Positions 19,935-35,297 of a DNA stretch of 35,297 nt are shown here, piece after piece. A program made the position numbers and the translations under genes. The notes under the pieces were generated by a model. The model was not told where the DNA came from. It did no database searches and saw only the letters and a list, made by a program, of their open reading frames with translations. This stretch comes from an uncultured Lachnospiraceae bacterium (GTDB lineage Bacteria; Bacillota; Clostridia; Lachnospirales; Lachnospiraceae), in NCBI GenBank assembly GCA_947382625.1, contig CANDAG010000038.1, positions 1 through 35,297 of the forward strand. The letters are read 5' to 3'. Each line of letters starts with the position of its first letter. Positions within the stretch are counted from its first letter, which is position 1.

Positions 19935-19963
19935 TTGACAGAAAAAGAGTTTGTCAATATACT
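19935..19963 (+). promoter_or_regulatory. Promoter of the RND exporter gene
   Basis: TTGACA (19935-19940), exactly 17 bp, TATACT (19958-19963): near consensus. The -35 and -10 boxes lie in the two arms of a dyad, GTATATTGACA and TGTCAATATAC, followed by a T-run, so the same bases could also form a hairpin. Confidence 0.75.
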
Positions 19964-19973
19964 TTTTTTGGTG

Positions 19974-19989
19974 CCGACCGACTGGTCGG
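19974..19989 (+). promoter_or_regulatory. TetR-type operator near +1 of the RND promoter
   Basis: The palindrome CCGACCGACTGGTCGG (6-bp arms, 4-bp centre) lies 11 bp after the -10 box, where bound repressor would block initiation or escape. Dyads of this CGACC-GGTCG kind are common TetR-family sites. The TetR gene two steps downstream is the likely ligand-controlled repressor. Confidence 0.65.
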
Positions 19990-20049
19990 ACGGAAAGAAA
20001 AATATTTTGCAGAGCAGCTTTTCGAATAAAAAAGAAAGGACAGGTACAT

Positions 20050-23000
20050 ATGCTATCAAAATTCAGTGTTAAGAAGCCGTACACCGTGCTGGTGGCGGTG
20101 GTGCTTGTGATCGTTCTGGGAGTCGTTTCTTTTATGAAAATGACCACAGACCTTTTGCCTAATATCAGTCTGCCTTACGTGATCGTAATGACAGCCTATC
20201 CGGGGGCCAGCCCGGAAACGGTGGAGACGGTGGTCACCAAGCCGGTGGAATCATCTATGGCAACGGTGAGCAATATTGAGAGCATCAGCTCTGTATCCAG
20301 CGAAAACTATTCCATGGTGATCCTTGAATTCGCCCAGTCTGCAGATATGAATGCGGTGTCATTGGAGATCAGGGAAAACCTGGACCAGATCAAGAGCTAT
20401 TGGGATGATTCTGTGAGCAATCCCATTATCATGAAGCTGAATCCCGATATGCTCCCGGTGATGATCGCAGCAGTGGGCGGCCATGATATGGATGCTTCTG
20501 AGGTCACCCTTATGACAGAAAATACTATCATACCCGCGTTAGAGAGTATTGACGGGGTGGCATCTGCCAGTGCAACAGGTCTTTTGGAGGAGAGCGTCAA
20601 TGTTATTATCCGGCAGGAAAAGGTGGATAAGATCAACAGACAGGTATTTGGCTCTATCGACGAAGAGATTGATGAGGCAAAGGAAGACCTGAATGAAAGC
20701 AGAGAAGAGGTCTATGATGGCCAGGCGGAGATCGATAACGCACGCAAGGAGCTTGCAGATTCCAAAAGAGAGCTTGCCGACAAGCGTCAGGAGCTTGTAG
20801 ATTCCAAGGCGGAGCTTGAGGATTCCCGTAAGGAGTTAGAGGATGGCAAGGCAGAGATCGCAGAGAACAGGGTGAAGCTTGAGGAAGGAAAGACAGAGCT
20901 TGCCAATCAGAAGGAGGCCGCTACCCGCCAGCTGGCAGAGACAGAAACCAGGCTCATGACTGCCAAATCAGAGAATGAGGCGAGGAAGGTTCATATCCAG
21001 ATGGAAATAGAAACCTTCAGAATGCTTTTGGACGAGGCCGAAAAGAAGCTGGAAGAAATGGAATCCGAAACCGGCACGCCGGAGGACACGCCGGAGATGG
21101 CTCAGATCAGCGCCAGTATCCAGGAGGGAAACGATCTTTCCTCACTGATAGAAGAACGATACGGGGATCTGGAATATTCTTTGTGGGAGGAGTCTGACCG
21201 GGTCAGGATCGAGCAGTATCTGTCTACCAGCTTTGACGATAATGCGGGAATGGGAGATGTGCTGTCCCAGATCTTTGAAGTAATCCAGGGATATCAGGGG
21301 CAGTACGATGCGCTTCTGGAGATTCTGATGAGCGGCTGGGAGGCCCAGAAGGCGGAAGCCGTTATCAAGGCCAAAGAAGCAATCCTGGAATATCGGGGAA
21401 AGATTGACGAGCTGGAAGGGATACTGTCTATGATTGATGACGGGCTTGCCCAGATCGATGAAGGCTTAAGCCAGCTCTATAAGGGCAATATAACAGCAGC
21501 CACAGAGTTTGCCAATGCGCAGACCACAATCAGCCTGGGAGAGCTGCAGTTAGGCACAGCGGAGGCTCAGCTTGACGCAGGCAAGTCCCAGCTGGAGGCA
21601 GCAGAAAAGCAGTTAAAGTCCGGAGAAGAGCAGTTAGAGGCCGGAGAAGAACAGATCAAAGACGGGGAAAAGCAGCTCGACGATACGGCGGAGCAGCTGG
21701 CGGACGCCCTTCAGCAGATCCTTGATGGGGAGGAGCAGCTGGAGGAAAGCCGGGAGGAGGCCTATGACAAGGCGGATATGCACAGCATCCTTACCGTGGA
21801 GACCGTTGAAAAGCTGCTGATGGCCCAGAATTTTTCCATGCCTGCAGGCTATGTTACAGAAAACGGGATCTCCTATCTGATCCGTGTGGGAGATAAGCCG
21901 GAGGATATTGAGGAACTGAAGAAAATGCCGCTCATGAATCTGGAGATGGACGGCGTGGACGTGATCACCTTAGGGGACGTGGCGGATGTGTTTATGACGG
22001 ATAATTCCGCAGACATCTATGCCAATGTAAACGGAGCCCCCGGCATTATGGTGACCCTGCAGAAGCAGACAGGGTACTCTACCGGAGATGTGTCGGACAG
22101 GATCCTGGAGAAGTTTGAGGAGCTTATGGAGGAAAATGAGGATCTGATGCTGATCACCCTGATGGATCAGGGGATTTACATTGATCTGGTCATGGATTCC
22201 ATTATCAATAACATCCTTTTTGGAGCCGTGCTTGCGATCATTATCCTGATCCTGTTCCTGAAGGATCTGCGTCCTACGGCTGTGATCGCCTTTTCCATTC
22301 CGATCAGTCTTGTGACGGCCATCGTCTGCATGTACTTTTCGGGAGTTACTTTAAACGTAATTTCGTTATCCGGCCTGGCGCTGGGGATCGGTATGCTGGT
22401 GGATAACTCCATCGTGGTGATCGAAAATATTTACCGGCTCCGGAAGGAAGGGTATTCGGCCCGGGAGGCTGCCATCGAAGGAGCTGGGGAAGTGGCAGGG
22501 GCTATTATGGCCTCCACACTTACCACTGTGTGCGTATTTTTGCCGATTGTGTTTACGGAAGGGATCACCCGGCAGCTCTTTGTGGATATGGGCCTGACCA
22601 TTGCTTACTCTCTGCTTGCCAGTCTGGTGATCGCCCTTACGGTGGTGCCGGCAATGGCCTCCGGCATGCTGACAAAGACCAGAGAGACCTCGGACGGGAA
22701 ATTTTTTGCGGCGCTTTCCGGCGGATACGAGAAGCTGCTCGCCCTTGCCCTTAAGTGGAAGCCGGTGGTACTGATCCTGGTGGTGGCTCTGCTGGGGATC
22801 AGCGCCTATGCTTCTTATTCTAAGGGGACGGCTTTTATGCCGGATATGGACAGCACCCAGTTTAATATGTCCATCACCATGCCTAAGGATACGCCTCTTT
22901 CGGAAACTGCAAAGGTGACAGATGAGGTGGTGGAGAGACTTCTTGCAAGGGAGGATGTGGCGGATGTAGGAGCCATGGCTTCTTCCTCCTCCATGACCAT

Positions 23001-24303
23001 GCTTACCGGCGGGGGAAATACGGCCACCAATGCTACTACTCTTTATCTTTCCATGCGTGAGGATAAAGAAAAATCCAATGAGGTGATCGCTGATGAGATC
23101 ATGGAGGAATTATCGGACATTTGCGAGGAAAATGATGCGGAGATCGTGATCGATACCTCCTCCATGGATATGAGCGCCTTAGGAGGCAGCGGTATCACTG
23201 TGCAGGTGAGAGGGCGTGATCTTGACCGGATGCAGGAGATTGCCAGAGATATTGCCGCCATCGCAGAGGGCGTGGAGGGAACGGAAAATGTTTCTGACGG
23301 CTTAGAGGAGTCTACCGGAGAGCTGCGTGTTCTGGTGGATCGGGATAAGGCCATCGAGCATGGAATGACTGTGGCTGAAATCTTCAGTCAGCTGGCGGAA
23401 AAGCTTGCGGAAAGCACCAGCGCAACCACTTTGGAGACCGCAGATAATGAATTTGAGGTTTTTGTGAAGCATGGGACGGATATTGCCCTTACCAGAGAGC
23501 TGGTAAAGGAAGTGGTTCTGGAGAGGACGAAGCAGGATGGTACAAAGGAAAAGATCCCTCTGTCAGAGGTGGCGGATTTTGAGGATACCATTTCTCCGGA
23601 TTCCGTCAACAGGGTGGATCAGAACCGTTATATTGCCGTATCTGCAGGGATTGCAGACGGTTACAATGTAGGTCTGGTATCGGATGCTTTGGAGAAGGAG
23701 CTGGCCGGATATGAGATGCCTTCCGGCTACAGTCTTGTGATGAGCGGTGAGAATGAGATGATCACAGACGCCATGGAACAGCTTTACCTGATGCTGCTGC
23801 TTGCGCTGATCTTTATGTATCTGATCATGGTGGCACAGTTCCAGTCGCTGTTATCGCCCTTTATCATCATGTTTACCATTCCTCTGGCTTTTACCGGCGG
23901 ATTTTTGGGACTGGTGGTCAGCGGAAGCGAGCTCAGCGTCATTGCACTTATTGGATTTGTGATGCTTTCCGGTATTATTGTAAATAATGGTATCGTGCTG
24001 GTGGATTATACCAATCAGCTCCGCAGTGAAGGAATGGGGAAACGGGAGGCTCTCATGGAGGCGGGAAGGACCAGGATGCGTCCGGTACTGATGACGGCGC
24101 TGACAACGATCCTGGCGCTCTGCACCATGGTATTCAGTCACGACATGGGGGCCGAGATGGGAAGGCCTATGGCTATCGTTACGATCGGCGGACTTACCTA
24201 TGGTACGGTGCTTACCCTGGTAGTGATCCCGTGTATTTATGATATTTTCCATAAGGAGAAAAAATCGCCTGATCAGGCGAAAGCGGCAAATGAGGAGGTT
24301 TAG
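20050..24303 (+). CDS. RND superfamily exporter with large coiled-coil insertion
   Basis: A 1417-residue RND transporter (ACR_tran type). Residues 9-29 are the first membrane helix; PNISLPYVIVMTAYPGASPE is the usual porter-domain motif. After residue ~198 a long heptad-like insertion occurs (KELADSKRELADKRQEL and so on), with a second helical part to about 576. The membrane bundle (about 713-877) has LALGIGMLVDNSIVVIENIY, with a single Asp in place of the paired DD of AcrB; the second bundle is at about 1241-1394. ATG 20050 is chosen because in-frame codons further upstream run through the promoter. No membrane fusion protein or TolC is nearby; the coiled coil may replace such a partner or span the wall. 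Controlled by the TetR gene 3 bp downstream, so it probably expels toxic amphiphiles. Confidence 0.9.
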   Translation: MLSKFSVKKPYTVLVAVVLVIVLGVVSFMKMTTDLLPNISLPYVIVMTAYPGASPETVETVVTKPVESSMATVSNIESISSVSSENYSMVILEFAQSADMNAVSLEIRENLDQIKSYWDDSVSNPIIMKLNPDMLPVMIAAVGGHDMDASEVTLMTENTIIPALESIDGVASASATGLLEESVNVIIRQEKVDKINRQVFGSIDEEIDEAKEDLNESREEVYDGQAEIDNARKELADSKRELADKRQELVDSKAELEDSRKELEDGKAEIAENRVKLEEGKTELANQKEAATRQLAETETRLMTAKSENEARKVHIQMEIETFRMLLDEAEKKLEEMESETGTPEDTPEMAQISASIQEGNDLSSLIEERYGDLEYSLWEESDRVRIEQYLSTSFDDNAGMGDVLSQIFEVIQGYQGQYDALLEILMSGWEAQKAEAVIKAKEAILEYRGKIDELEGILSMIDDGLAQIDEGLSQLYKGNITAATEFANAQTTISLGELQLGTAEAQLDAGKSQLEAAEKQLKSGEEQLEAGEEQIKDGEKQLDDTAEQLADALQQILDGEEQLEESREEAYDKADMHSILTVETVEKLLMAQNFSMPAGYVTENGISYLIRVGDKPEDIEELKKMPLMNLEMDGVDVITLGDVADVFMTDNSADIYANVNGAPGIMVTLQKQTGYSTGDVSDRILEKFEELMEENEDLMLITLMDQGIYIDLVMDSIINNILFGAVLAIIILILFLKDLRPTAVIAFSIPISLVTAIVCMYFSGVTLNVISLSGLALGIGMLVDNSIVVIENIYRLRKEGYSAREAAIEGAGEVAGAIMASTLTTVCVFLPIVFTEGITRQLFVDMGLTIAYSLLASLVIALTVVPAMASGMLTKTRETSDGKFFAALSGGYEKLLALALKWKPVVLILVVALLGISAYASYSKGTAFMPDMDSTQFNMSITMPKDTPLSETAKVTDEVVERLLAREDVADVGAMASSSSMTMLTGGGNTATNATTLYLSMREDKEKSNEVIADEIMEELSDICEENDAEIVIDTSSMDMSALGGSGITVQVRGRDLDRMQEIARDIAAIAEGVEGTENVSDGLEESTGELRVLVDRDKAIEHGMTVAEIFSQLAEKLAESTSATTLETADNEFEVFVKHGTDIALTRELVKEVVLERTKQDGTKEKIPLSEVADFEDTISPDSVNRVDQNRYIAVSAGIADGYNVGLVSDALEKELAGYEMPSGYSLVMSGENEMITDAMEQLYLMLLLALIFMYLIMVAQFQSLLSPFIIMFTIPLAFTGGFLGLVVSGSELSVIALIGFVMLSGIIVNNGIVLVDYTNQLRSEGMGKREALMEAGRTRMRPVLMTALTTILALCTMVFSHDMGAEMGRPMAIVTIGGLTYGTVLTLVVIPCIYDIFHKEKKSPDQAKAANEEV

Positions 24304-24306
24304 GCT

Positions 24307-24936
24307 ATGGAGGGGGAAAAGCTGGCACCGAAGGCAAAGGCGGTTTATCATGCTGTGATCGCGCTGTTTGCGGAGGGCGCGGATCTAAACAGCCTTACGG
24401 TTGCAGAAATCGCCGAAAAGGCGGGGATCGGAAAAGGTACGGTCTATGAGTATTTTAAAAATAAGGAGGAGATGATCGCAGGGGCTCTGTTTTACCAGAT
24501 GAAGGAGTCCTGCGAAAATCTCTATGAGGAGCTTGGCCGGGAAAAGAATATGTATGATAAGATGGACAAGATCCTTTCGAATATGGAAAAGGAAATGACA
24601 GAGATCTCCTTTTTTATCCGGGCTCTGTACGTGATGCTGGATAATTCTTCCATAAGCGGCAGACTCAGGGAGCTGTGGTGCGCAAAGGGCAAAAAAGAGG
24701 TACCGGTGGTCGATCTGATGCGCCGGGTCATCGATGATGAGATCGGAACAGAGGAAGGGGTGGGCGAGGAGGACAGGGATTATCTGGTGATGACAGTTTT
24801 GTCCCGGCTTGCCTGCTTTGCCATTTATCAGTTTGGTACCGGGGAAAGGCTCAGTGTGGACAAAAAGACCATGCGGGAGCGGATCTGCAGGGATGCATGC
24901 AGGGATGTGGAAAACGCAAAAAGCTTTTGCAGGTAA
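24307..24936 (+). CDS. TetR/AcrR-family transcriptional regulator
   Basis: A 209-residue TetR-family protein. The helix-turn-helix is TVAEIAEKAGIGKGTVYEYFKNKEEMI (shown in two parts: TVAEIAEKAGIGKG and TVYEYFKNKEEMI), near residues 27-53. The remaining helical part is the variable ligand-binding domain. It starts 3 bp after the exporter stop with GAGGAGG inside that gene, so the two form an operon. It most likely binds the palindrome at 19974-19989 and controls its own operon. The ligand is unknown. Confidence 0.9.
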   Translation: MEGEKLAPKAKAVYHAVIALFAEGADLNSLTVAEIAEKAGIGKGTVYEYFKNKEEMIAGALFYQMKESCENLYEELGREKNMYDKMDKILSNMEKEMTEISFFIRALYVMLDNSSISGRLRELWCAKGKKEVPVVDLMRRVIDDEIGTEEGVGEEDRDYLVMTVLSRLACFAIYQFGTGERLSVDKKTMRERICRDACRDVENAKSFCR

Positions 24937-24998
24937 GCGGAAGTCAGCGCTTTGGGTCTGACGGAGGCATAGAGAGAAGAAAGGAAAAGAGGGCAGAG

Positions 24999-25616
24999 AT
25001 GGGAATATGCTATATCGTAGGGGCCGGGGAATTCGGAGACGAAACCTTTGTTCCACAAAAGGAGGATCTGGTGATCGCCTGTGACGGCGGATATGCCCAT
25101 CTGGCCGGGCGGGGAGTCAGGATCGATCTGGTGGTGGGAGATTTTGATTCTCTGGGCTACCTTCCGGAGCATCCTGATGTTATCCGTCTGCAGCCGGAAA
25201 AGGACGATACGGATACGGGCTGGGCTGTGAAGGAGGGCTGGCGCAGAGGCTTTCGTGAGTTCGTGATCTGTGGGGGGACCGGAGGAAGAGCCTCCCACAC
25301 CATGGCGAATATCCAGCTTTTGACGGATCTTGCGGCCAGGGGCGGCCGGGGACTTATGATAGGAAAAGACTCCTGGTATCGTGTGATCTGTGACGGGGAA
25401 ATCTTTTTTGATTCTGAAGAAACAGGTTATCTTTCGGTTTTTTGTCTGGGAGATAAAGCGGAAGGGGTTTTTGAGAGCGGTCTGAAGTATGAGCTTGCAG
25501 ATGCAGTGCTCACAAAGGAGTATCCGGTAGGGGTGAGCAACGAATTTATGGGGAAAGAGAGCAGGGTAGCAGTGCGAAAGGGCACGCTGCTCCTGATCGG
25601 GGAAAGGAAGAGATAG
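24999..25616 (+). CDS. thiN: Thiamine pyrophosphokinase
   Basis: A 205-residue TPK, which converts thiamine to thiamine pyrophosphate with ATP. Signatures: IACDGGYAHL, LVVGDFDSLGY, the acidic QPEKDDTDTGWAV and ICGGTGGRASHTMANIQLL, with a C-terminal beta domain that has the VGVSNEF motif. ATG 24999 is chosen since the family begins with a CYIVGAGE-like strand; the in-frame ATG at 24897 lies inside the TetR gene. It is followed after 3 bp by the spermidine-synthase-like gene. In Bacillus the same enzyme is YloS. Confidence 0.9.
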   Translation: MGICYIVGAGEFGDETFVPQKEDLVIACDGGYAHLAGRGVRIDLVVGDFDSLGYLPEHPDVIRLQPEKDDTDTGWAVKEGWRRGFREFVICGGTGGRASHTMANIQLLTDLAARGGRGLMIGKDSWYRVICDGEIFFDSEETGYLSVFCLGDKAEGVFESGLKYELADAVLTKEYPVGVSNEFMGKESRVAVRKGTLLLIGERKR

Positions 25617-28153: not shown

Positions 28154-28357
28154 AATAAGCCTCCATGCTGCTGGCATTTGCCAATTTGAACGCCTATGCA
28201 GCTTACTTGGGAATGTTTTGGATGAACAATAACAGTATAGCACTTTTTTATACATATACAAGAATAATTTCCATGGTGTTTCCCCAAAAGAAAGGCTATA
28301 ATTGGAATATCATATATGGTAACAGACAGGATTTTTACACACATGGAGGAGAAGACA
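28154..28357. promoter_or_regulatory. Divergent control region between AraC-type and GH2 genes
   Basis: 204 bp without a gene. Toward GH2 there is a good -10 box, TATAAT (28297-28302), but no matching -35 box at 16-18 bp, as expected of a promoter that needs an AraC-type activator. AraC sites probably lie in 28200-28280 but cannot be pinned down. Confidence 0.5.
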
Positions 28358-30082
28358 ATGGGAGTAATACCAAGACCGGAGCATCCGCAGCCTCAGATGG
28401 AGCGGAAGAACTGGATGAATCTGAACGGAGAGTGGGATTTCACATTTGATTTTGGAAACAGCGGGGTCGAACGGAAATTATTTGAGAGAACAGAGCTGGA
28501 TCAAAAGATTACAGTGCCCTTTTGCCCGGAAAGCGATTTAAGCGGGATCGGCTATAAGGATTTTATGCGGGCGGTGTGGTATCACCGCACAGTTACTCTT
28601 ACAGGAGAGCAGCTAAAGGGCAGGGTTCTGCTGCATTTCGGCGCAGTGGATTATGAGTGCCGTGTATGGATAAACGGCGAAGAGGTTGGGAACCACAAGG
28701 GAGGATATACCTCTTTTTGCATGGATATCACATCTCTGGTGAAGGAAGGAGAGAATCATCTGTCCGTTTATGCCGGGGATGATACCAGAAGCGGGCGGCA
28801 GCCAAAGGGAAAGCAGAGCGGATTATATTATTCGGTTGGCTGCGATTATACCCGTACTACCGGTATCTGGCAGACGGTGTGGCTGGAGTTTGTGCCTGAG
28901 CACTACATTGAAAAGGTACAGTACTATCCTAATATTGCGGAGGGGACACTGACCATTAAGGCTGTCATCAAAGGAGGCAGCGGAATCGGCGAACTGACAG
29001 CAAAGGCATTTTATGAAGGAAGAGAATGCGGAAGCGCGGCGGCAAAGGTAAGTGTCGGCGTGGCAGTGCTTACAATTCCTCTTTCGGAGCTGCATTTATG
29101 GGAACCGGGAGCAGGAAGGCTTTATGATCTTTCACTTAGCCTTGGAGAGGATGAGGTAAGCAGCTACTTTGGAATGCGTGAGGTCAGCATTCAGGGAGAG
29201 AAGGTGCTGATCAACGGCAGATCTGTTTTCCAGAGGCTGGTACTGGATCAGGGCTTTTATCCGGACGGGATCTATACGGCGCCTGACAGGGAAGCCTTGA
29301 GGAGGGATATCGAGCTGTCCATGGCCGCAGGCTTTAACGGAGCCCGTCTCCACGAAAAGGTATTCGAACCGGCATTTTTGTATTATTGTGATAAACTGGG
29401 CTATCTGGCATGGGGAGAGCAGGGAAACTGGGGATTGGATGTAAGTGCGCCTCAGGGACTCAAATGCTTCCTTCCGGAGTGGATGGAGGCCATGGACCGG
29501 GACTTCAATCACCCTGCGATCATCGGCTGGTGCCCCTTTAATGAAACCTGGAACTATGAGGGACGCAAGCAGGATGACGAGCTTCTGGAGATCGTCTACC
29601 GTATGACAAAGCTTTTTGACCCCACCAGACCCTGTATTGATACCAGCGGTAATTTCCATGTAAGGACGGATATTTACGATCTTCACGATTATGAGCAGGA
29701 TCCTGCGGTCTTTGCCTCTCACTATCAGGAGTTCGCAGAGGGCGGAGAGCTTTTGGATACCCATCCGGACAGGCAGACACCGGTAAAGGGGGTTCCTGTG
29801 TTTATCAGTGAGTACGGCGGCATCAAGTGGGATGTGGAAAGCGGAAATGAGCAAAGCTGGGGCTATGGCCAGGGACCTGAAACAGAGGAAGCCTTTATCC
29901 AGAGATATAAGGGACTGACAGATGCTCTTTTGGACAATCCTCATATGTTCGGATTCTGCTACACACAGCTTTATGATGTGGAGCAGGAGGTAAACGGTCT
30001 GTATACCTATGAGAGAAAGCCGAAGTTCGATATGGAGATCTTTAAGGCCATTAACAGCCGTAAGGCGGCGATTGAAGACTGA
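28358..30082 (+). CDS. Glycoside hydrolase family 2 protein
   Basis: A 574-residue GH2 enzyme: jelly-roll domain (LNGEWDFTFDFGNSG; AVWYHRTV; HFGAVDYECRVWINGEEVG), Ig-like domain, and TIM barrel with the acid/base Glu in PFNETWN (E396) and the nucleophile in ISEYGG (E485). No signal peptide, so intracellular. Length is that of short GH2 members (beta-glucuronidase or beta-mannosidase/galactosidase-like), lacking the extra C-terminal domains of LacZ. No NxK motif of gut glucuronidases is evident, so glucuronide activity is not supported. ATG 28358 has GGAGGAG 6 nt upstream. It forms an operon with the GtaA-like gene and is divergent from the AraC regulator. Confidence 0.92.
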   Translation: MGVIPRPEHPQPQMERKNWMNLNGEWDFTFDFGNSGVERKLFERTELDQKITVPFCPESDLSGIGYKDFMRAVWYHRTVTLTGEQLKGRVLLHFGAVDYECRVWINGEEVGNHKGGYTSFCMDITSLVKEGENHLSVYAGDDTRSGRQPKGKQSGLYYSVGCDYTRTTGIWQTVWLEFVPEHYIEKVQYYPNIAEGTLTIKAVIKGGSGIGELTAKAFYEGRECGSAAAKVSVGVAVLTIPLSELHLWEPGAGRLYDLSLSLGEDEVSSYFGMREVSIQGEKVLINGRSVFQRLVLDQGFYPDGIYTAPDREALRRDIELSMAAGFNGARLHEKVFEPAFLYYCDKLGYLAWGEQGNWGLDVSAPQGLKCFLPEWMEAMDRDFNHPAIIGWCPFNETWNYEGRKQDDELLEIVYRMTKLFDPTRPCIDTSGNFHVRTDIYDLHDYEQDPAVFASHYQEFAEGGELLDTHPDRQTPVKGVPVFISEYGGIKWDVESGNEQSWGYGQGPETEEAFIQRYKGLTDALLDNPHMFGFCYTQLYDVEQEVNGLYTYERKPKFDMEIFKAINSRKAAIED

Positions 30083-30097
30083 AAAATTGCAATAGGG

Positions 30098-30144
30098 GAT
30101 CCGCCGGGACAGTTCGGCTAAAGGCTGAGCTATCCCGGTGGATC
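30098..30144 (+). repeat. Intercistronic hairpin between GH2 and GtaA-like genes
   Basis: GATCCGCCGGGA (30098-30109) pairs with TCCCGGTGGATC (30133-30144) with one G-U, and the inner AGTTCGGCT / AGGCTGAGCT extends the stem. No T-run follows, so it probably sets mRNA stability or partial read-through. Confidence 0.55.
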
Positions 30145-30175
30145 ATAATAACGTGTCTGAAAGGATTTATTTCAT

Positions 30176-32227
30176 ATGAGAAAAGAGAATTTACGCTCTA
30201 TGGAGCGCATTCCTGCGGTTCCTCTGATCACCTGTGATCCTTATTTCAGCCTTTGGTCCGGAAGCGATTGCCTGTATGAGACGGATACCATGCATTGGTG
30301 CGGGATCAAAAAGCCCATAAAGGGGCTGCTTCTGGTGGATGGAGAAGTCTTCCGGTTTGCAGGAGACGGGACCGAGGCGGTTATGGAGCAGAAAGGCCTG
30401 CAAGTAACGGCAACCCGCACGCAATATTACTTTGAAGGGGATAAGGTAGGACTTACGGTAGATTTCTGGACGCCGCTGCTTCTGGATGACCTGGAGCTGG
30501 TCTCCCGTCCCTGTTCCTACATTGATACGGAGGTCTCCTCCTTAGATGAAAAAGAACATAAGGTGGAAGTGGTCTGGAAATTTGACCAGGCCTTTTGTAT
30601 GGACGGGGAGGAGCCGAAGCCCGTGGGCGGCGGCAGCTACCTTCATGAAGACCATCAGATTGCCTGGATGGGACAGCGCAGGCAGACGCCCTTAGGACAC
30701 AGTGGAGACGGGGTTACCATTGACTGGGGATATCTGTATCTTGCCGGAAAAGATGCGGAAAAAACCTGCATTTCATATCAGAAGGAGACCTATGAGAAGG
30801 AGTCCTGTGGGACTTCGGGGGAAGCGGCGTATCTTTCGGCAAGATTTTCTTTTGATCTGGAAAAGGGAAAAGAAAGCAGAGCTACCCTCGTGGCGGCGTA
30901 TGACGATATCGCATCCATCTTTTATTTTGGCAAAATGATGCCGGGGTATTGGGCAAGAGATGGCAAGACGATTCTCACAGCCATTGATGAGGCCTTACGG
31001 CAGCATGAGGAATTAAGGAAAAGATGTGCAGAATTTGATGAGAAGCTGCAGAAGGATGCCGAAAGCTTTGGCAAGGCATATGCAAAAATCTGTGCAGTAG
31101 CTTATCGCCAGTCTATTGCCGCCCATAAGCTGATTACTGATGAGGAAGGAAAGCCCGTCTTTTTATCAAAGGAATGCTTCTCTAACGGTTGCATTGGTAC
31201 AGTGGATGTCACTTATCCTTCAACGCCGTTGTATTTTTGCTATCAGCCGGAGCTGGTGCGGGCAATGATGCGTCCGGTTCTGCGTTTTTCGCGGATGCCG
31301 GTGTGGAGCTTTGATTTTGCGCCCCACGATGTAGGGCGATACCCCTATGTGTCAGGCCAGGTGTATGGGCTTGAGCCACATCAGAAGGCCTATGCGGAGA
31401 TGGAGGAAGAGCAGAAGCAGGGACAGGTTTTCCCTATGTTTTATCAGATGCCCCGGGAGGCGGCTCCCTACGGGCTAAAAGACCAGATGCCGGTGGAGGA
31501 GAGTGGAAACATGTTGATCCTGGCGGCAGAGCTGATCAGGCTGGAACCGGAGAAAGGGAAGGATGTCACCCTGGAAAGCATGGATCTGTATGAAAAATGG
31601 GTGAAATATCTTTTAGAGTACGGCAGTGATCCGGGAGAGCAGCTTTGTACCGATGATTTTGCGGGACATCTGGCTCACAACGTAAATCTGGCCATTAAAG
31701 CGATTATGGGGATAGAGTCCTATTCCATTTTGCTTGACGCGGCAGGAAAAAAGGATGAGGCGGCGGAATATCATCAGAAGGCAGTAAGGATGGCAGGGGA
31801 TGTCTATGAGAGGGCCAGGGCGGAGGCACATACCCGATTAACCTTTGATGGACAGGAAGAGAGCTGGAGCCTGAAATATAATGCAGTCTGGGATCGGCTG
31901 TTTCAGTCCGGGCTGTGGCCGGAGAGTTTTTATGAGCAGGAGATTTCCTGCTATATACAGAAGCAGAATGACTACGGAACGCCATTAGACTCTCGTGATA
32001 CCTATACAAAAAGTGACTGGCTGATGTGGTGCGCAGCCATGGCAGGGAAGCCGGAAACTACAGAGCGATTTGCAGAAAGGATTCTGAAGTTCCTGGAAGA
32101 AAGCCCTGACCGCGTTCCTTTTTCAGACTGGTACGATACAGTGAGCGGCAGGCAGATCGGATTCCAGAACAGAACGGTTCAGGGAGGGTTATTTATGCCT
32201 TTGCTGTACAAAAAACATTTGTCATAA
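30176..32227 (+). CDS. GtaA-like protein (DUF4964-DUF5127-DUF4965)
   Basis: A 683-residue protein of the glutaminase A-like family. The N-terminus (IPAVPLITCDPYFSLWS; MHWCGIKKPIKGLLLVDG) is DUF4964; the middle beta-sandwich is DUF5127; the C-terminal half is the six-hairpin helical domain (SFDFAPHDVGRYPY; LCTDDFAGHLAHNVNLAIKA; YNAVWDRLF; DTVSGRQIGFQNRTVQGG). The fungal member was called a glutaminase, but the (alpha/alpha)6 fold and constant placing beside glycosidases in bacteria suggest a carbohydrate enzyme. No signal peptide. A weak ribosome site, AAAGGA, precedes ATG 30176. It is second in the GH2 operon and is followed by a good terminator. Confidence 0.88.
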   Translation: MRKENLRSMERIPAVPLITCDPYFSLWSGSDCLYETDTMHWCGIKKPIKGLLLVDGEVFRFAGDGTEAVMEQKGLQVTATRTQYYFEGDKVGLTVDFWTPLLLDDLELVSRPCSYIDTEVSSLDEKEHKVEVVWKFDQAFCMDGEEPKPVGGGSYLHEDHQIAWMGQRRQTPLGHSGDGVTIDWGYLYLAGKDAEKTCISYQKETYEKESCGTSGEAAYLSARFSFDLEKGKESRATLVAAYDDIASIFYFGKMMPGYWARDGKTILTAIDEALRQHEELRKRCAEFDEKLQKDAESFGKAYAKICAVAYRQSIAAHKLITDEEGKPVFLSKECFSNGCIGTVDVTYPSTPLYFCYQPELVRAMMRPVLRFSRMPVWSFDFAPHDVGRYPYVSGQVYGLEPHQKAYAEMEEEQKQGQVFPMFYQMPREAAPYGLKDQMPVEESGNMLILAAELIRLEPEKGKDVTLESMDLYEKWVKYLLEYGSDPGEQLCTDDFAGHLAHNVNLAIKAIMGIESYSILLDAAGKKDEAAEYHQKAVRMAGDVYERARAEAHTRLTFDGQEESWSLKYNAVWDRLFQSGLWPESFYEQEISCYIQKQNDYGTPLDSRDTYTKSDWLMWCAAMAGKPETTERFAERILKFLEESPDRVPFSDWYDTVSGRQIGFQNRTVQGGLFMPLLYKKHLS

Positions 32228-32283: not shown

Positions 32284-32371
32284 ATAGAGTAGGCCTGATC
32301 TTATCTGATACGAGGTTTTATAGATGGTTGGAGGAGTGACAATGAAATCAGAATAAATGTTCTGACTACCT

Positions 32372-32391
32372 TTTTGATTACTTTTGATTAC
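32372..32391 (+). repeat. Integrase arm-type repeats, left pair
   Basis: TTTTGATTAC twice in tandem (32372-32381, 32382-32391), with a degenerate CTGACTACC just before. They lie about 40 bp left of the tRNA 3' fragment. Confidence 0.6.
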
Positions 32392-32399
32392 ATGCAATA

Positions 32400-32428
32400 A
32401 AAAAACCCTTGAAAATCAAGGGTTTTTT
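32400..32428 (-). terminator. Probable displaced terminator of tRNA-Thr
   Basis: AAAAACCCTTG (32401-32411) and CAAGGGTTTTT (32417-32427), a perfect 11-bp stem. On the minus strand it follows the 29-bp tRNA 3' fragment directly and has a T-rich tail, as expected for the original tRNA terminator. Confidence 0.65.
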
Positions 32429-32457
32429 AAGCTGCTGACGGGAATCGGACCCGTGAC
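32429..32457 (-). repeat. tRNA-Thr 3'-end fragment, left attachment site
   Basis: 29 bp identical to 35245-35273: the acceptor 3' strand and whole T-arm of tRNA-Thr (GCTGCTGACGGGAATCGGAC and the next 7 bases). The identity stops sharply after GTGAC. This is the footprint left by an element integrated at a tRNA 3' end. Confidence 0.8.
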
Positions 32458-32501
32458 TGAAAGCTGATTTTTGGCTTAAAATCAAGGTTTTTGCTTTCGG
32501 A

Positions 32502-32532
32502 TTTTGATTACTTATGATTACCTGTTGATTAC
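32502..32532 (+). repeat. Integrase arm-type repeats, right triplet
   Basis: TTTTGATTAC (32502-32511), TTATGATTAC (32512-32521), TGTTGATTAC (32523-32532), spaced about one helical turn, about 45 bp right of the tRNA fragment and in the same direction as the left pair. Confidence 0.6.
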
Positions 32533-32570
32533 TTTATATCAATTAAGGAAGGAGGAAATTCCTGCGCTGG

Positions 32571-32684
32571 GATAAGCAGGGAGTCCTATATCTAATGCAA
32601 GATTTTATAGCCGTTTGGAAGTGTGCCGTGTTTGATCTTTTGCTGTACAAAAATGTCAAGATTGGTTATATTATAAGTATAAAG
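32571..32684 (+). promoter_or_regulatory. Rpn cassette leader, copy 1, with promoter
   Basis: About 110 bp that recur at 33742-33853 with about 90% identity. The conserved part includes TTTGATCTTTTGCTGTACAA and a likely promoter, TGTACA, 17 bp, TATATT, kept in both copies. Apart from this the 497-bp gap 32228-32724 holds the terminator, arm repeats and attachment site, and no gene. Confidence 0.7.
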
Positions 32685-32724
32685 CAAAAGGCGTGACAGC
32701 CGAATGCTGGAAGAGGAGAGGATA

Positions 32725-33651
32725 ATGGTAAATACACCATATGATGACGTGTTCCGGACACTGCTGAATGATTGCAGCAGCCTTATATTGCCGTTGCTTA
32801 ACGAGGTCTTTGACGAGCAGTATAAGGGACAGGAAGAGATTATATTTTCCCCTAATGAGCATTATGTAAACCGTCAGGACGGGGGGGAAGAGAAACGAAT
32901 TACGGATACCTGTTTTATAGTGACAGGAGAAGGAACAAAGAAATATCACTGGGAATGCGAAAGTACGACAGACAACAGTATTCTTGTGCGGATCTTCGAG
33001 TATGCTGCTCAGATTGCGCTGGATGACGGCAGCAGGGAAGGGAATATACTAAAGGTGAGATTCCCCCATTCAGCAGTACTTTCCCTACGGGCAGGAAAAA
33101 GAGCACCGGAAAAGATGAAGGTGCAGATTGAAACGCCGGGAGGTGTACTTACTTATGATATTCCGGTGATGAAAATAAAATCCTATGCAAAGGAGGATAT
33201 TTTTGAAAAGGGTTTGCTGTTTCTGATCCCGTTTTATATATTTACGCGGGAAACGAAATTTAAGGAATACGAGGAGGATGACGAAAAGCTGGCTATGCTG
33301 GTAAAGGAATATGAATTTATCCGAGCCCGTCTGGAAGAACTGGAGAGAAGTGGTACGATCAATGAATATACGAAATGTACGCTGATAGATATGACGAATA
33401 AAGTCTGTGAGAATATAGCGGCGAAATATCAGAAGGTCAGGAAAGGAGTGAAGGATGTTATGGGCGGACAGATACTGGAATATGAGGCAAAGTTGATTAA
33501 AAAAGAAGGCATGAGAGAGGGAAAAATGGAGGAACGTATCATATCAATCAAGGAGCTGATGAAAAACCTTCATCTCACAGCAGAGCAGGCTATGTCGGCA
33601 TTAGGGATACCGGAAGCGGAACATGCGGAGTATGCCGGGAAACTGATTTAG
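32725..33651 (+). CDS. Rpn/PD-(D/E)XK nuclease family protein A
   Basis: A 308-residue protein of the PD-(D/E)XK 'transposase-like' group that is expanded in Lachnospiraceae. The core is RITDTCFIV with D61 and KYHWECEST with E77-C-E79, then VRIFEYAAQIAL, which matches the usual YHIECQS...R.xEY signature of the group with Glu in place of Gln/Lys at the third position. A helical tail with EGMREGKMEERI follows, then AEQAMSALGI, like the C-termini of other Rpn proteins. ATG 32725 follows GAGGAGAGG; ATG 32704 upstream is in frame but its ribosome site is poor. It is the first gene of the tRNA-Thr island, flanked by the duplicated leader and terminator. Nuclease activity is inference. Confidence 0.8.
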   Translation: MVNTPYDDVFRTLLNDCSSLILPLLNEVFDEQYKGQEEIIFSPNEHYVNRQDGGEEKRITDTCFIVTGEGTKKYHWECESTTDNSILVRIFEYAAQIALDDGSREGNILKVRFPHSAVLSLRAGKRAPEKMKVQIETPGGVLTYDIPVMKIKSYAKEDIFEKGLLFLIPFYIFTRETKFKEYEEDDEKLAMLVKEYEFIRARLEELERSGTINEYTKCTLIDMTNKVCENIAAKYQKVRKGVKDVMGGQILEYEAKLIKKEGMREGKMEERIISIKELMKNLHLTAEQAMSALGIPEAEHAEYAGKLI

Positions 33652-33683
33652 ATATGCTGGTTGATATAATTTGATTAAGTTAA

Positions 33684-33732
33684 GTTTTCAGGGAAGAGCA
33701 TTTGGGACGAAAGTAGTCCTAGATGCTCTTTT
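33684..33732 (+). terminator. Rpn cassette terminator, copy 1
   Basis: AAGAGCAT...ATGCTCTT with inner GGAC/GTCC pairing and a short T-run, part of a 49-bp sequence that recurs at 34924-34972 with one substitution (CCTAGAT versus CCTGGAT). Confidence 0.8.
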
Positions 33733-33741
33733 GGCTGTGAG

Positions 33742-33853
33742 GATAAGCAGGGAATCCTATATCTAATACAAAGTTTTATAGCCGGTTGGAAGTGTGCCGA
33801 TGTTTGATCTTTTGCTGTACAAAAATGACAGGATTGGGTATAGTATAAATTAG
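33742..33853 (+). promoter_or_regulatory. Rpn cassette leader, copy 2, with promoter
   Basis: Second copy of the 32571-32684 leader, starting GATAAGCAGGGAATCCTATA. The promoter reads TGTACA, 17 bp, TATAGT. Between it and gene B (33854-33993) I see no gene; an in-frame ATG at 33904 lacks a ribosome site. Confidence 0.7.
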
Positions 33854-33993
33854 AAGGTGCTGGCTGAACAGAATTTGGTACAACATGGGAAAGATTTTAC
33901 GGGATGCCAAATTGGGTAAGGAATTATTGCGTATTTCCTGCAAAAGTATATGACCAAGAAAAACAGTGCTATAAACAGACACAGGAGAAGTTT

Positions 33994-34803
33994 ATGAATG
34001 AAATGATAGATATAAAAGAAGATTTTACAGTATGGGAAGAGCTTGGAATCTCTAATGATTTCCTGTTTGGGAAGGTTATGCAAGATCCGGAGCTGTGTAA
34101 AGAGCTGCTCACGAGAATACTTCCTGACCTTGATATTGACCATGTGGAGTATCCAGAATTACAGAAAGGAATTAAGCTTGATGCGGATGCAAAAAGCGTC
34201 AGGCTGGATGTGTATGTAAGGGATGGGAAAGGGACAATTTATGACATAGAAATGCAGGTGGCAGATACAAAAGAACTGCCGAAAAGAACAAGATATTACC
34301 AGAGTATGATTGACCTTCAAATGATTGATAAGGGTCAGTCTTACAAGAGGTTAAATCCCAGCTATGTAATCTTTATCTGCCAGTTCGACCTTTTTAATAT
34401 GGGAAGACATATCTACACTTTTGAGAATATCTGCAAAGAAGACAAAGATATTTTTCTGGGGGATGGTGCGGTAAAGATATTTTTAAATACAGATGGAAAA
34501 TTAGATGATGTAAGCAGGGAATTAAAAGCTTTTCTGGATTATGTGGCAGGGAAGGAATCAGAGGATTCATTTGTAAGAAGGTTGGAGGAAGCTGTAGAGG
34601 CAGCGAAGAGAAATCGGGAATGGAGGCATGAATATATGACGTTATTAATGAGAGATCAGGAGAATATTGAAAAGGGAATTAAAAAGGGAATTGAGGGTAC
34701 TGTATCGGTACTGAGAAAATACAATATTGCGGATGCGGAGATAGTTCAGGAAATACAGAAAGAATATAATCTGACAAGAGAAGAAGCGGAAGAATATTTA
34801 TAA
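33994..34803 (+). CDS. Rpn/PD-(D/E)XK nuclease family protein B (PDDEXK_2 type)
   Basis: A 269-residue protein of the PD-(D/E)XK family transposase group (PF12784-like). The N-terminus NDFLFGKVMQDPELCKELL is the usual opening; the nuclease core is VRLDVYVRDGKGTIYDIEMQ with D72 and E86-M-Q88, followed by KRTRYYQSMIDLQMIDKGQSY and YVIFICQFDLF, all standard for the family. The end has EGTVSVLRKYNIADAEIVQE and NLTREEAEEYL, a typical regulatory tail. ATG 33994 has AGGAG 7 nt upstream. It shares leader and terminator repeats with gene A but not its coding sequence. Such proteins promote RecA-independent exchange or act in phage defence; the role here is unknown. Confidence 0.87.
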   Translation: MNEMIDIKEDFTVWEELGISNDFLFGKVMQDPELCKELLTRILPDLDIDHVEYPELQKGIKLDADAKSVRLDVYVRDGKGTIYDIEMQVADTKELPKRTRYYQSMIDLQMIDKGQSYKRLNPSYVIFICQFDLFNMGRHIYTFENICKEDKDIFLGDGAVKIFLNTDGKLDDVSRELKAFLDYVAGKESEDSFVRRLEEAVEAAKRNREWRHEYMTLLMRDQENIEKGIKKGIEGTVSVLRKYNIADAEIVQEIQKEYNLTREEAEEYL

Positions 34804-34922
34804 CCGGATGCTGGAAGAGAGGGATAATGTCAGGCAAAATTAACGGAAGAAGTATTTCAGGAAAAATTGCAGAGTATAATGGATAAGATCAGAAAAAGGA
34901 TGGAACTGGTAAAATCTGATTC
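34804..34922 (+). pseudogene. Remnant of a third Rpn-type cassette gene
   Basis: The bases CCGGATGCTGGAAGAGAGGG and ATAATG (34804-34829) copy the ribosome-site block of gene A (32699-32727). Behind them only about 100 bp remain: one frame opens as KLTEEVFQEKLQSIMDKIRK and continues RMELVKSDSVFREE into the terminator, but is out of frame with the ATG. It looks like an internal deletion that kept the start block and the last codons. Confidence 0.45.
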
Positions 34923-34923
34923 A

Positions 34924-34972
34924 GTTTTCAGGGAAGAGCATTTGGGACGAAAGTAGTCCTGGATGCTCTTTT
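34924..34972 (+). terminator. Rpn cassette terminator, copy 2
   Basis: Same 49-bp sequence as 33684-33732 with one change; stem AAGAGCAT / ATGCTCTT followed by TTTTTG. Confidence 0.8.
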
Positions 34973-34983
34973 TGTTTTTCAAT

Positions 34984-35009
34984 AAGCTGGCTCGTGAAGC
35001 GTGACAGAG
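34984..35009. repeat. Degenerate member of the small hairpin family
   Basis: CTGGCTCGTGAAGCGTGACA shares the GGCTCGnrrAGCGTG core with 9408-9432 and matches 27713-27732 (CTGGCCTGTGAAGCGTGAGA) at most positions. The outer stem is not kept. Confidence 0.45.
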
Positions 35010-35095
35010 TTTGAGGTTGAAATGTAAAGTATTTATTTTATAGTGAGAAGGCAGAGGATGGGCAGGAGCAATTCTCGTCTGAATGATGCCCCGTA

Positions 35096-35138
35096 CTTGT
35101 ACTTCTTTGGCTTCTTTGATCAGCGTGTCATATGCCAT
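35096..35138 (-). pseudogene. Truncated antitoxin-like N-terminus
   Basis: On the minus strand AAAGGA precedes an ATG at 35138 that codes MAYDTLIKEAKEV. This opening is like those of small DUF2281/RelB-type antitoxins, but after about 14 codons the sequence changes to low-complexity residues and no family match continues. It is probably the stump of a toxin-antitoxin gene cut by rearrangement. The rest of 34980-35194 holds nothing else I can support. Confidence 0.35.
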
Positions 35139-35194
35139 TAAAACACATCCTTTCAAATTCTTGATGCCAATACAATTAAGATATAACAAAATAA

Positions 35195-35228
35195 AGACTT
35201 TCCAAAGGATATTTCCCTGAAAAGTCTC
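35195..35228 (-). terminator. Probable present terminator of tRNA-Thr
   Basis: AGACTTT (35201-35195 complement) and AAAGTCT pair across 20 nt; on the minus strand the hairpin is followed by TTATTTTG. It begins about 17 bp past the tRNA 3' end. Confidence 0.4.
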
Positions 35229-35245
35229 GTCTCAATTTTTATAAA

Positions 35246-35297
35246 GCTGCTGACGGGAATCGGACCCGTGACCTCCGCACTACCAATGCGACGCTCT
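35246..35297 (-). tRNA. tRNA-Thr (GGT), partial at the window edge
   Basis: On the minus strand the 3' two thirds of a tRNA are present: anticodon arm CGCATTGGTAGTGCG with loop TTGGTAG, giving anticodon GGT (Thr); variable loop AGGTC; T-arm ACGGG-TCCGATT-CCCGT; acceptor strand CAGCAGC and discriminator T. No CCA is encoded. The 5' part lies outside the window. Its 3' end matches 32429-32457 exactly. Confidence 0.85.

Follow-up and report, generated by a model that had tools for sequence, protein, structure and literature searches.

Near the right end of a 35,297-nucleotide contig of an uncultured Lachnospiraceae bacterium (assembly GCA_947382625.1, contig CANDAG010000038.1, here C38; the whole contig is called the window), a segment of 2.8 kb is bounded on either side by a copy of the 3' end of tRNA-Thr(GGT). 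This segment is probably a decayed remnant, devoid of an integrase, in a tandem stack of at least two integrations at a tRNA-Thr hotspot. The reading is built on the direct repeat, on clusters of the motif GTAATCA that flank the copy remote from the tRNA (distal) and are missing from the copy within it (proximal), and on relatives in which the same site is empty or differently occupied, in some of them by intact counterparts. The coordinates of all features are collected in Table 1, and genomes of relatives are denoted by G and a number.

The Repeat of the tRNA-Thr(GGT) End

The 29 bases of the repeat are exact and run in the same direction, with a start-to-start distance of 2,815 bp; a sequence-only reading of the same DNA had described the repeat correctly and given its distance as 2,816 bp. 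In the genome of the bacterium itself (113 contigs, 88% complete, available as an assembly without reads), these are the only two copies with up to three mismatches, and a reversed-pattern control gave no match. By our own arithmetic (position pairs multiplied by 4^-29, even base composition assumed), about 2e-9 exact 29-bp repeats would be expected by chance in 35 kb. The far boundary of the segment is thus marked by a direct repeat of the tRNA 3' end, and the tRNA is restored at the near one. No tRNA was called at the distal copy, and a second tRNA-Thr gene covering it, which the sequence-only reading had named as something that would refute its view, was rejected.

The window stops inside the tRNA, the other part of which is found at the start of contig C75 with an overlap of 32 bases, and on the two contigs joined ARAGORN calls tRNA-Thr(GGT). 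An assembly chimera, in which contig ends were wrongly joined at a tRNA shared in identical form between species, is very improbable: the contig does end inside the tRNA, as do those of G011 and G023, and G018 has a gap there, but C38 is continuous across the two 29-bp copies, its flanks are unique, and the genes that should neighbour tRNA-Thr are present on it, in agreement with the join to C75.

Such interruptions were seen more than once, in that the assemblies of G000 (the bacterium itself), G011 and G023 break, and G018 has a gap of N, inside tRNA-Thr(GGT), probably due to the identity of this tRNA between many species. The contig break was not used as a sign of active excision, since a tRNA identical in many species may break metagenome assemblies, and an intron in the tRNA of G018 was rejected, the interruption being the gap of N. 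The tRNA-Thr(GGT) found at this locus in G001 (L082 2420-2493) and G029 (L083 969-1042) is clearly distinct in sequence.

The Distal Copy and Its Arm-like Repeats

The distal copy is directly followed, in tRNA sense, by a terminator hairpin predicted by folding, as the sequence-only reading had noticed. The stretch 32399-32457 is identical to the end of tRNA-Thr in G024 (59 of 59 bases), which bears out the direct joining of tRNA and terminator predicted for an uninterrupted site; the sequence beyond the terminator differs in G024. The earlier reading had missed the GTAATCA repeats on both sides of this copy, three on the inner side and two outside the terminator, with a third outer one at 32363-32369 that has one mismatch. 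These repeats look like arm sites to which an integrase would bind, and the distal copy with its terminator has the layout expected of a complete attP, that is, a core flanked by arm repeats on both sides; seen from the segment, it is an attR-like end that has retained its arm sites.

Arm repeats were mostly recognised by eye; pairs of GTAATCA were also counted. The genome of the bacterium contains only three pairs at a spacing of 3-4 bases, all of them at the distal copy. Among 37 genomes of the genus there are 15 such pairs, as against none for the reversed control, and 11 of the 15, as read by eye, have the 3' end or a fragment of a tRNA no more than about 160 nt away, and four do not; when the genome that supplied the pattern is excluded, 8 of 12 adjoin tRNA 3' ends or fragments. 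The tRNAs concerned are Thr and, in other species of the genus (L203, L208, L209, L104, L103, L087, L088), Gly (two kinds), Met and one further fragment, which we take to be Leu. In G019 the arms adjoin both the gene of an integrase and a 3' fragment of a tRNA, and in G001 two contigs carry GTAATCA at tRNA-Met, in the same sense as in the window, and appear to represent opposite ends of a single tRNA-Met insertion. The tRNA-Gly loci of G007 and G028 carry the arms as well; no integrase and no second core were found beside them in 20 kb each, and these elements may be relics too. The occurrence of the arms at several different tRNAs perhaps means that a single arm specificity has been paired with various target cores.

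On the outer side, 32345-32421 is 79% identical to the DNA of G007, and the first bases of this stretch, which match DNA beside tRNA-Gly, are proposed as the end of a second, mostly deleted element.

A complete attP layout is also what a tandem of one element or one prophage could leave behind after deletion of its bodies, the Rpn genes of the segment having arrived later in some other way. The IMG/VR contigs L243, L248, L249 and L252 have the tRNA-Thr core with an integrase nearby, and in three of these viral contigs (L243, L248, L249), which share the 24-bp core, different arm repeats flank the core and terminator on either side (by eye), which favours this alternative, as does the fact that Rpn genes are widespread and not tied to tRNA-Thr. 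We regard it as unlikely nonetheless, as there was no trace of an element body present more than once and the proximal and distal terminators are of different types. A further viral contig, L221, had been considered an exact match of the distal site; this was weakened by its GTAATCA arms, which point the opposite way relative to the tRNA fragment.

The Proximal Copy and the Mismatch of the Ends

No GTAATCA is found near the proximal copy. It has a terminator-like hairpin of its own, which the sequence-only reading had missed, and the region 35185-35297 is 84% identical to G028. The suggestion that the tRNA's own terminator had been pushed away by an insertion does not hold in that form, since the tRNA has a different terminator and has not lost one. 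In G012, G035 and G001 the arm-like repeats of the two ends match each other (by eye). The ends of the segment are mismatched, unlike those of G012, G035 and G001, which points to a composite or decayed remnant, or a collapsed stack.

The mismatch also bears on another explanation, a single small passenger, complete in itself and with two ends of its own, which an integrase moved in trans. Exact 29-bp repeats, the lack of an integrase inside, the low G+C of the segment (0.395 as against 0.488 for positions 1-32399 of the window) and the 11 integrases found elsewhere in the genome would all suit such an element, but its two ends should resemble each other as they do in the three relatives, whereas GTAATCA stands on both sides of the distal copy and is missing from the proximal one, and none of the genome's own integrases is close to the GTAATCA-associated one of G019. 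This explanation is accordingly held to be improbable.

The search for integrases covered the whole window with 12 queries and found none (best E 0.028 over 20 residues), neither between the copies, in agreement with the sequence-only reading, nor adjacent to the attP-like site. Among the 11 integrases elsewhere in the 88%-complete genome, two align with that of G019, at 29.7% identity over 172 residues and 31.9% over 72. As the segment has no integrase of its own and the 11 include no close relative of the GTAATCA type, it is probably fixed in place, and would stay immobile unless a foreign integrase acted on it. Were an integrase of that type to arrive, the proximal site, which lacks matching arms, and the full distal one would act as attB and attP. 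The earlier proposal of a small passenger, moved in trans or decayed, is therefore retained as regards decay; a single passenger with matching ends is not supported, and movement in trans found no positive evidence.

A more far-reaching reading of the pair of copies as attB-like (proximal, no matching arms) and attP-like (distal, both arms), improbable in our judgement, would reverse the logic of excision. If this were true, the 2.8 kb could be lost through the ordinary integration reaction of an integrase that recognises GTAATCA arms, with no need of an excisionase, and a related element would on its arrival eliminate the Rpn genes, which are possibly anti-phage genes. Should the asymmetry be real, the locus would be a testable case of an island that is removable by integrase alone.

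An Integration Hotspot in Relatives

To judge by the comparison of loci, tRNA-Thr(GGT) serves as a hotspot of integration in the genus, which is Parablautia-like and lives in the gut. When the stretches downstream of it were collected from relatives, the conserved flank was reached in 11 of 31 genomes, that of the bacterium included; in the other 20 the contig or stretch ended before the flank, or the flank differs. The distance from tRNA to flank is 44, 49 and 62 bp in G006, G016 and G026, which are essentially empty; identity to the counterparts in the window is 36-40% for their first flank gene and about 65-72% for the long gene that follows. It rises to 3.9, 4.3, 4.3 and 5.8 kb in G030, G013, G019 and G004, is 9.6 kb in the window, and reaches 12.1, 16.0 and 27.6 kb in G035, G021 and G012. 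Among 30 loci the 60 bp downstream of the tRNA are near random (0.568 vs 0.537 for shuffled sequences), the 40 bp upstream are conserved (0.690 vs 0.521), and the tRNA itself occurs in three versions and is identical in 27. The terminator-like sequence right after the tRNA differs between many species, as expected if elements bring their own.

The occupied sites include elements comparable to the one proposed here and complete with an integrase, which supports the earlier suggestion that the tRNA-Thr 3' end serves as an integration target. G012 and G035 have elements of 8,894 and 7,094 bp, each between 23-bp repeats of the tRNA end, with the integrase about 100 bp from the tRNA and with two arm-like repeats after the tRNA terminator that are matched by repeats about 45 nt before the distal core. 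A PF02407 replication protein is encoded in each, as is an ATPase with a weak match to the FtsK/HerA type, which we take to be a coupling protein. In G020 the integrase near the tRNA is nearly the same (95.6% over 250 residues), and an attR-like site lies at C15:98. In G001, 49-bp repeats enclose 7,286 bp in which pieces of an integrase occur, and G009 has several stacked copies of the tRNA end with an integrase remnant. Among 80 loci of the MATE gene that lies upstream of the tRNA, ARAGORN called tRNA-Thr(GGT) in 27, and three of these (G012, G035, G001) have a tRNA-end repeat in the stretch covered; repeats of 12-14 bases in G028, G025 and G027 were taken as chance. More than one copy of the 29-mer, with up to three mismatches, was found only in the bacterium itself and in G009 among 61 genomes. 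The extra copies in G009 bound other cargo; unless they are counted, no relative was found that carries both copies without the Rpn genes.

On one contig of G009 (C55, L081, at 2430, 6464 and 9467; see also L058), three tRNA-Thr ends lie 3-4 kb apart; terminators follow two of the three, and the terminal portion of a tyrosine integrase gene is present.

Proposed Origin and Points Against It

In the origin that we favour, tyrosine-recombinase elements would have brought copies of the tRNA 3' end, each with a terminator, to tRNA-Thr(GGT). The distal copy would be an internal junction of the stack, where the inner GTAATCA set would be part of the Rpn-bearing segment and the outer set part of a second element of which only tens of bases are left. 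The proximal copy would restore the tRNA with the terminator of another type of element, and the matching arm repeats at that end would have been lost or never been present.

Several points weigh against a stack of two elements. No third exact copy of the core of at least 12 bp lies on the outer side of the locus, the second element is deduced from the outer arms and some 27 bases of similarity only, and the cognate integrase was not found. The attP-like site could have been left by a tandem of one element and not of two different ones. The junction of C38 and C75 is an inferred one, because the contigs meet within the tRNA, of which 27 of 30 loci have the same sequence. Within 200 nt of the proximal copy, an 8-base direct repeat, CAAAGAAG, with an offset of 9, stands about 126 nt inside; it was discounted, since nothing corresponds to it at the distal site and single repeats of this sort also occur in G022 and G005.

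The left flank (25.6-32.3 kb) is a possible candidate for the second element and is not favoured, because G020, too, has homologues of both enzyme genes, arranged in the same order, on the far side of its attR-like site at C15:98; the tRNA of G020 is on another contig, so that its link to C15:98 is itself an inferred one.

Relation to Known Elements

The locus is of a known kind, with a few unusual details. Two papers describe streptococcal cis-mobilizable elements (CIMEs) in tandem accretion with integrative and conjugative or integrative and mobilizable elements (ICEs, IMEs), classical CIMEs being of 1.2-13 kb and gene-less microCIMEs of 130-220 bp (PMC5704250, PMC7563491). According to one of them, accretion starts from an element that decays and keeps its att sites, beside which another then integrates (PMC5704250). 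Measured against these descriptions, the segment is alike in being cargo without integration genes between copies of the 3' end of a tRNA or gene, in its internal att junction, in the stacking at one target gene and in having the most decayed piece farthest from the target. It differs in that its proximal end lacks arms that match the distal ones (it has no GTAATCA, and the only direct repeat there, of 8 bases, is unrelated), that a functional partner element is missing and that the outer piece has lost its far core. Because a complete attL was looked for and not found, the segment is not classed as a CIME.

IMEs with a tyrosine integrase at tRNA 3' ends are represented at the same tRNA by G012 and G035, PF02407 being listed for IMEs in PMC7563491. 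These IME-like elements differ from the segment, in which the integrase, PF02407 and FtsK/HerA-like genes were not found, and no genes shared with it were seen in them. The ssrA islands of Dehalococcoides are likewise tandem islands bounded by direct repeats of the 3' end of an RNA gene, with the difference that they use serine recombinases and a tmRNA gene (PMC3146451). A literature search on integrative elements of Parablautia associated with tRNA found no paper. The hotspot is documented here, and the locus illustrates how arm repeats can help to tell a simple island from a collapsed stack.

Genes and Remnants of the Segment

The open reading frames (ORFs) of the segment leave no obvious room for transfer genes (the two Rpn ORFs and that at 34857..35138 were scanned against Pfam). 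The sequence-only reading had spoken of Rpn-type genes, which proved right for gene 2, above the curated cut-off of its family. Gene 1 matched no Pfam, NCBIfam or PADLOC family and fell short of the curated Rpn cut-off. Its own family has matches in 23 of 37 genus genomes (that of the bacterium included, some of them weak), with no relatives in plasmid and phage collections or among solved structures; a search of viral contigs, for close relatives only, found none either. The "gene ghost" of the earlier reading comes from a further gene resembling gene 1, of which it is the 3' end. The leader of gene 1 (32570..32676, + strand) is duplicated at 33741-33848 as the leader of gene 2, and the terminator-like stretches 33680-33732 and 34920-34972 are also duplicates of each other.

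The Rpn genes were rejected as hallmark cargo of the tRNA-Thr site, being near-absent from the sites of relatives: among 32 tRNA-Thr sequences from 31 genomes, gene 1 matches the bacterium's own only, and gene 2 one other, in G021, at 30% identity and some 22 kb away. Rpn genes are reported to be horizontally mobile and to encode toxic anti-phage proteins with an internal antitoxin (PMC10327210, PMC5350276). Gene 2 shares the family with these, and gene 1 differs in matching no curated family; an anti-phage role is putative here.

A paralogue of gene 1 follows directly after a truncated tyrosine integrase on contig C2 of the same genome (L010 2964-4499). The 37-bp palindrome (ATCAATAAGCTGGCTCGCGAAGCGTGACAGCGTTTGAT-like) recurs in at least 37 further places of the genome and forms a 22-copy tandem array in G029 (L268 782-1602); its fold is only mildly better than that of shuffled sequences (z -1.8), and it looks like a REP-type (repetitive extragenic palindromic) element.

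Table 1. Features of the window around the repeated tRNA-Thr(GGT) end, with position, strand and basis or remark.
Feature	Position	Strand	Basis or remark
Proximal 29-bp copy (tRNA 3' end)	35244..35272	-	No adjoining GTAATCA
tRNA-Thr(GGT), 3' part	35245..35297	-	Rfam tRNA, cut at 5'; ARAGORN on joined sequence; remainder on contig C75
Terminator-like hairpin of proximal copy, "type D" as in G028, G001 and G029	35194..35228	-	Folding, alignment
Distal 29-bp copy, core of attP-like internal site	32429..32457	-
Terminator hairpin	32400..32428	-	Predicted by folding
Three GTAATCA, period 10-11, about 45-50 nt inside distal copy (putative P arm)	32505..32532	-
Two GTAATCA, 10-nt spacing, outside terminator (putative P' arm)	32375..32391	-
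Proposed end of second, mostly deleted element	32345..32371	-	Matches G007 DNA beside tRNA-Gly
Rpn-like gene 1	32704..33651	+	Family without curated match; best relatives 59-63% identical
Rpn-family nuclease gene 2	33904..34803	+	Over cut-offs of PF12784 and TIGR01784
Remnant of 3' end of first-type Rpn gene	34830..34887	+	58 bases; 95% to own C2:116444-116502
ORF starting MAYDTLIKEAKEVQ	34857..35138	-	No Pfam match; earlier label "antitoxin stump" unproven
Dispersed 37-bp palindromic repeat, one copy	34978..35014	+	37 of 41 own-genome matches fall on it
Left flank	28316..32227	+
Gene of left flank	28316-30082	+	Called GH2-like from reading
Glutaminase-A-type gene	30176-32227	+	Pfam-scanned
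Flank genes	19939..25613	+	Homologues downstream of tRNA-Thr in 10 of 30 relatives

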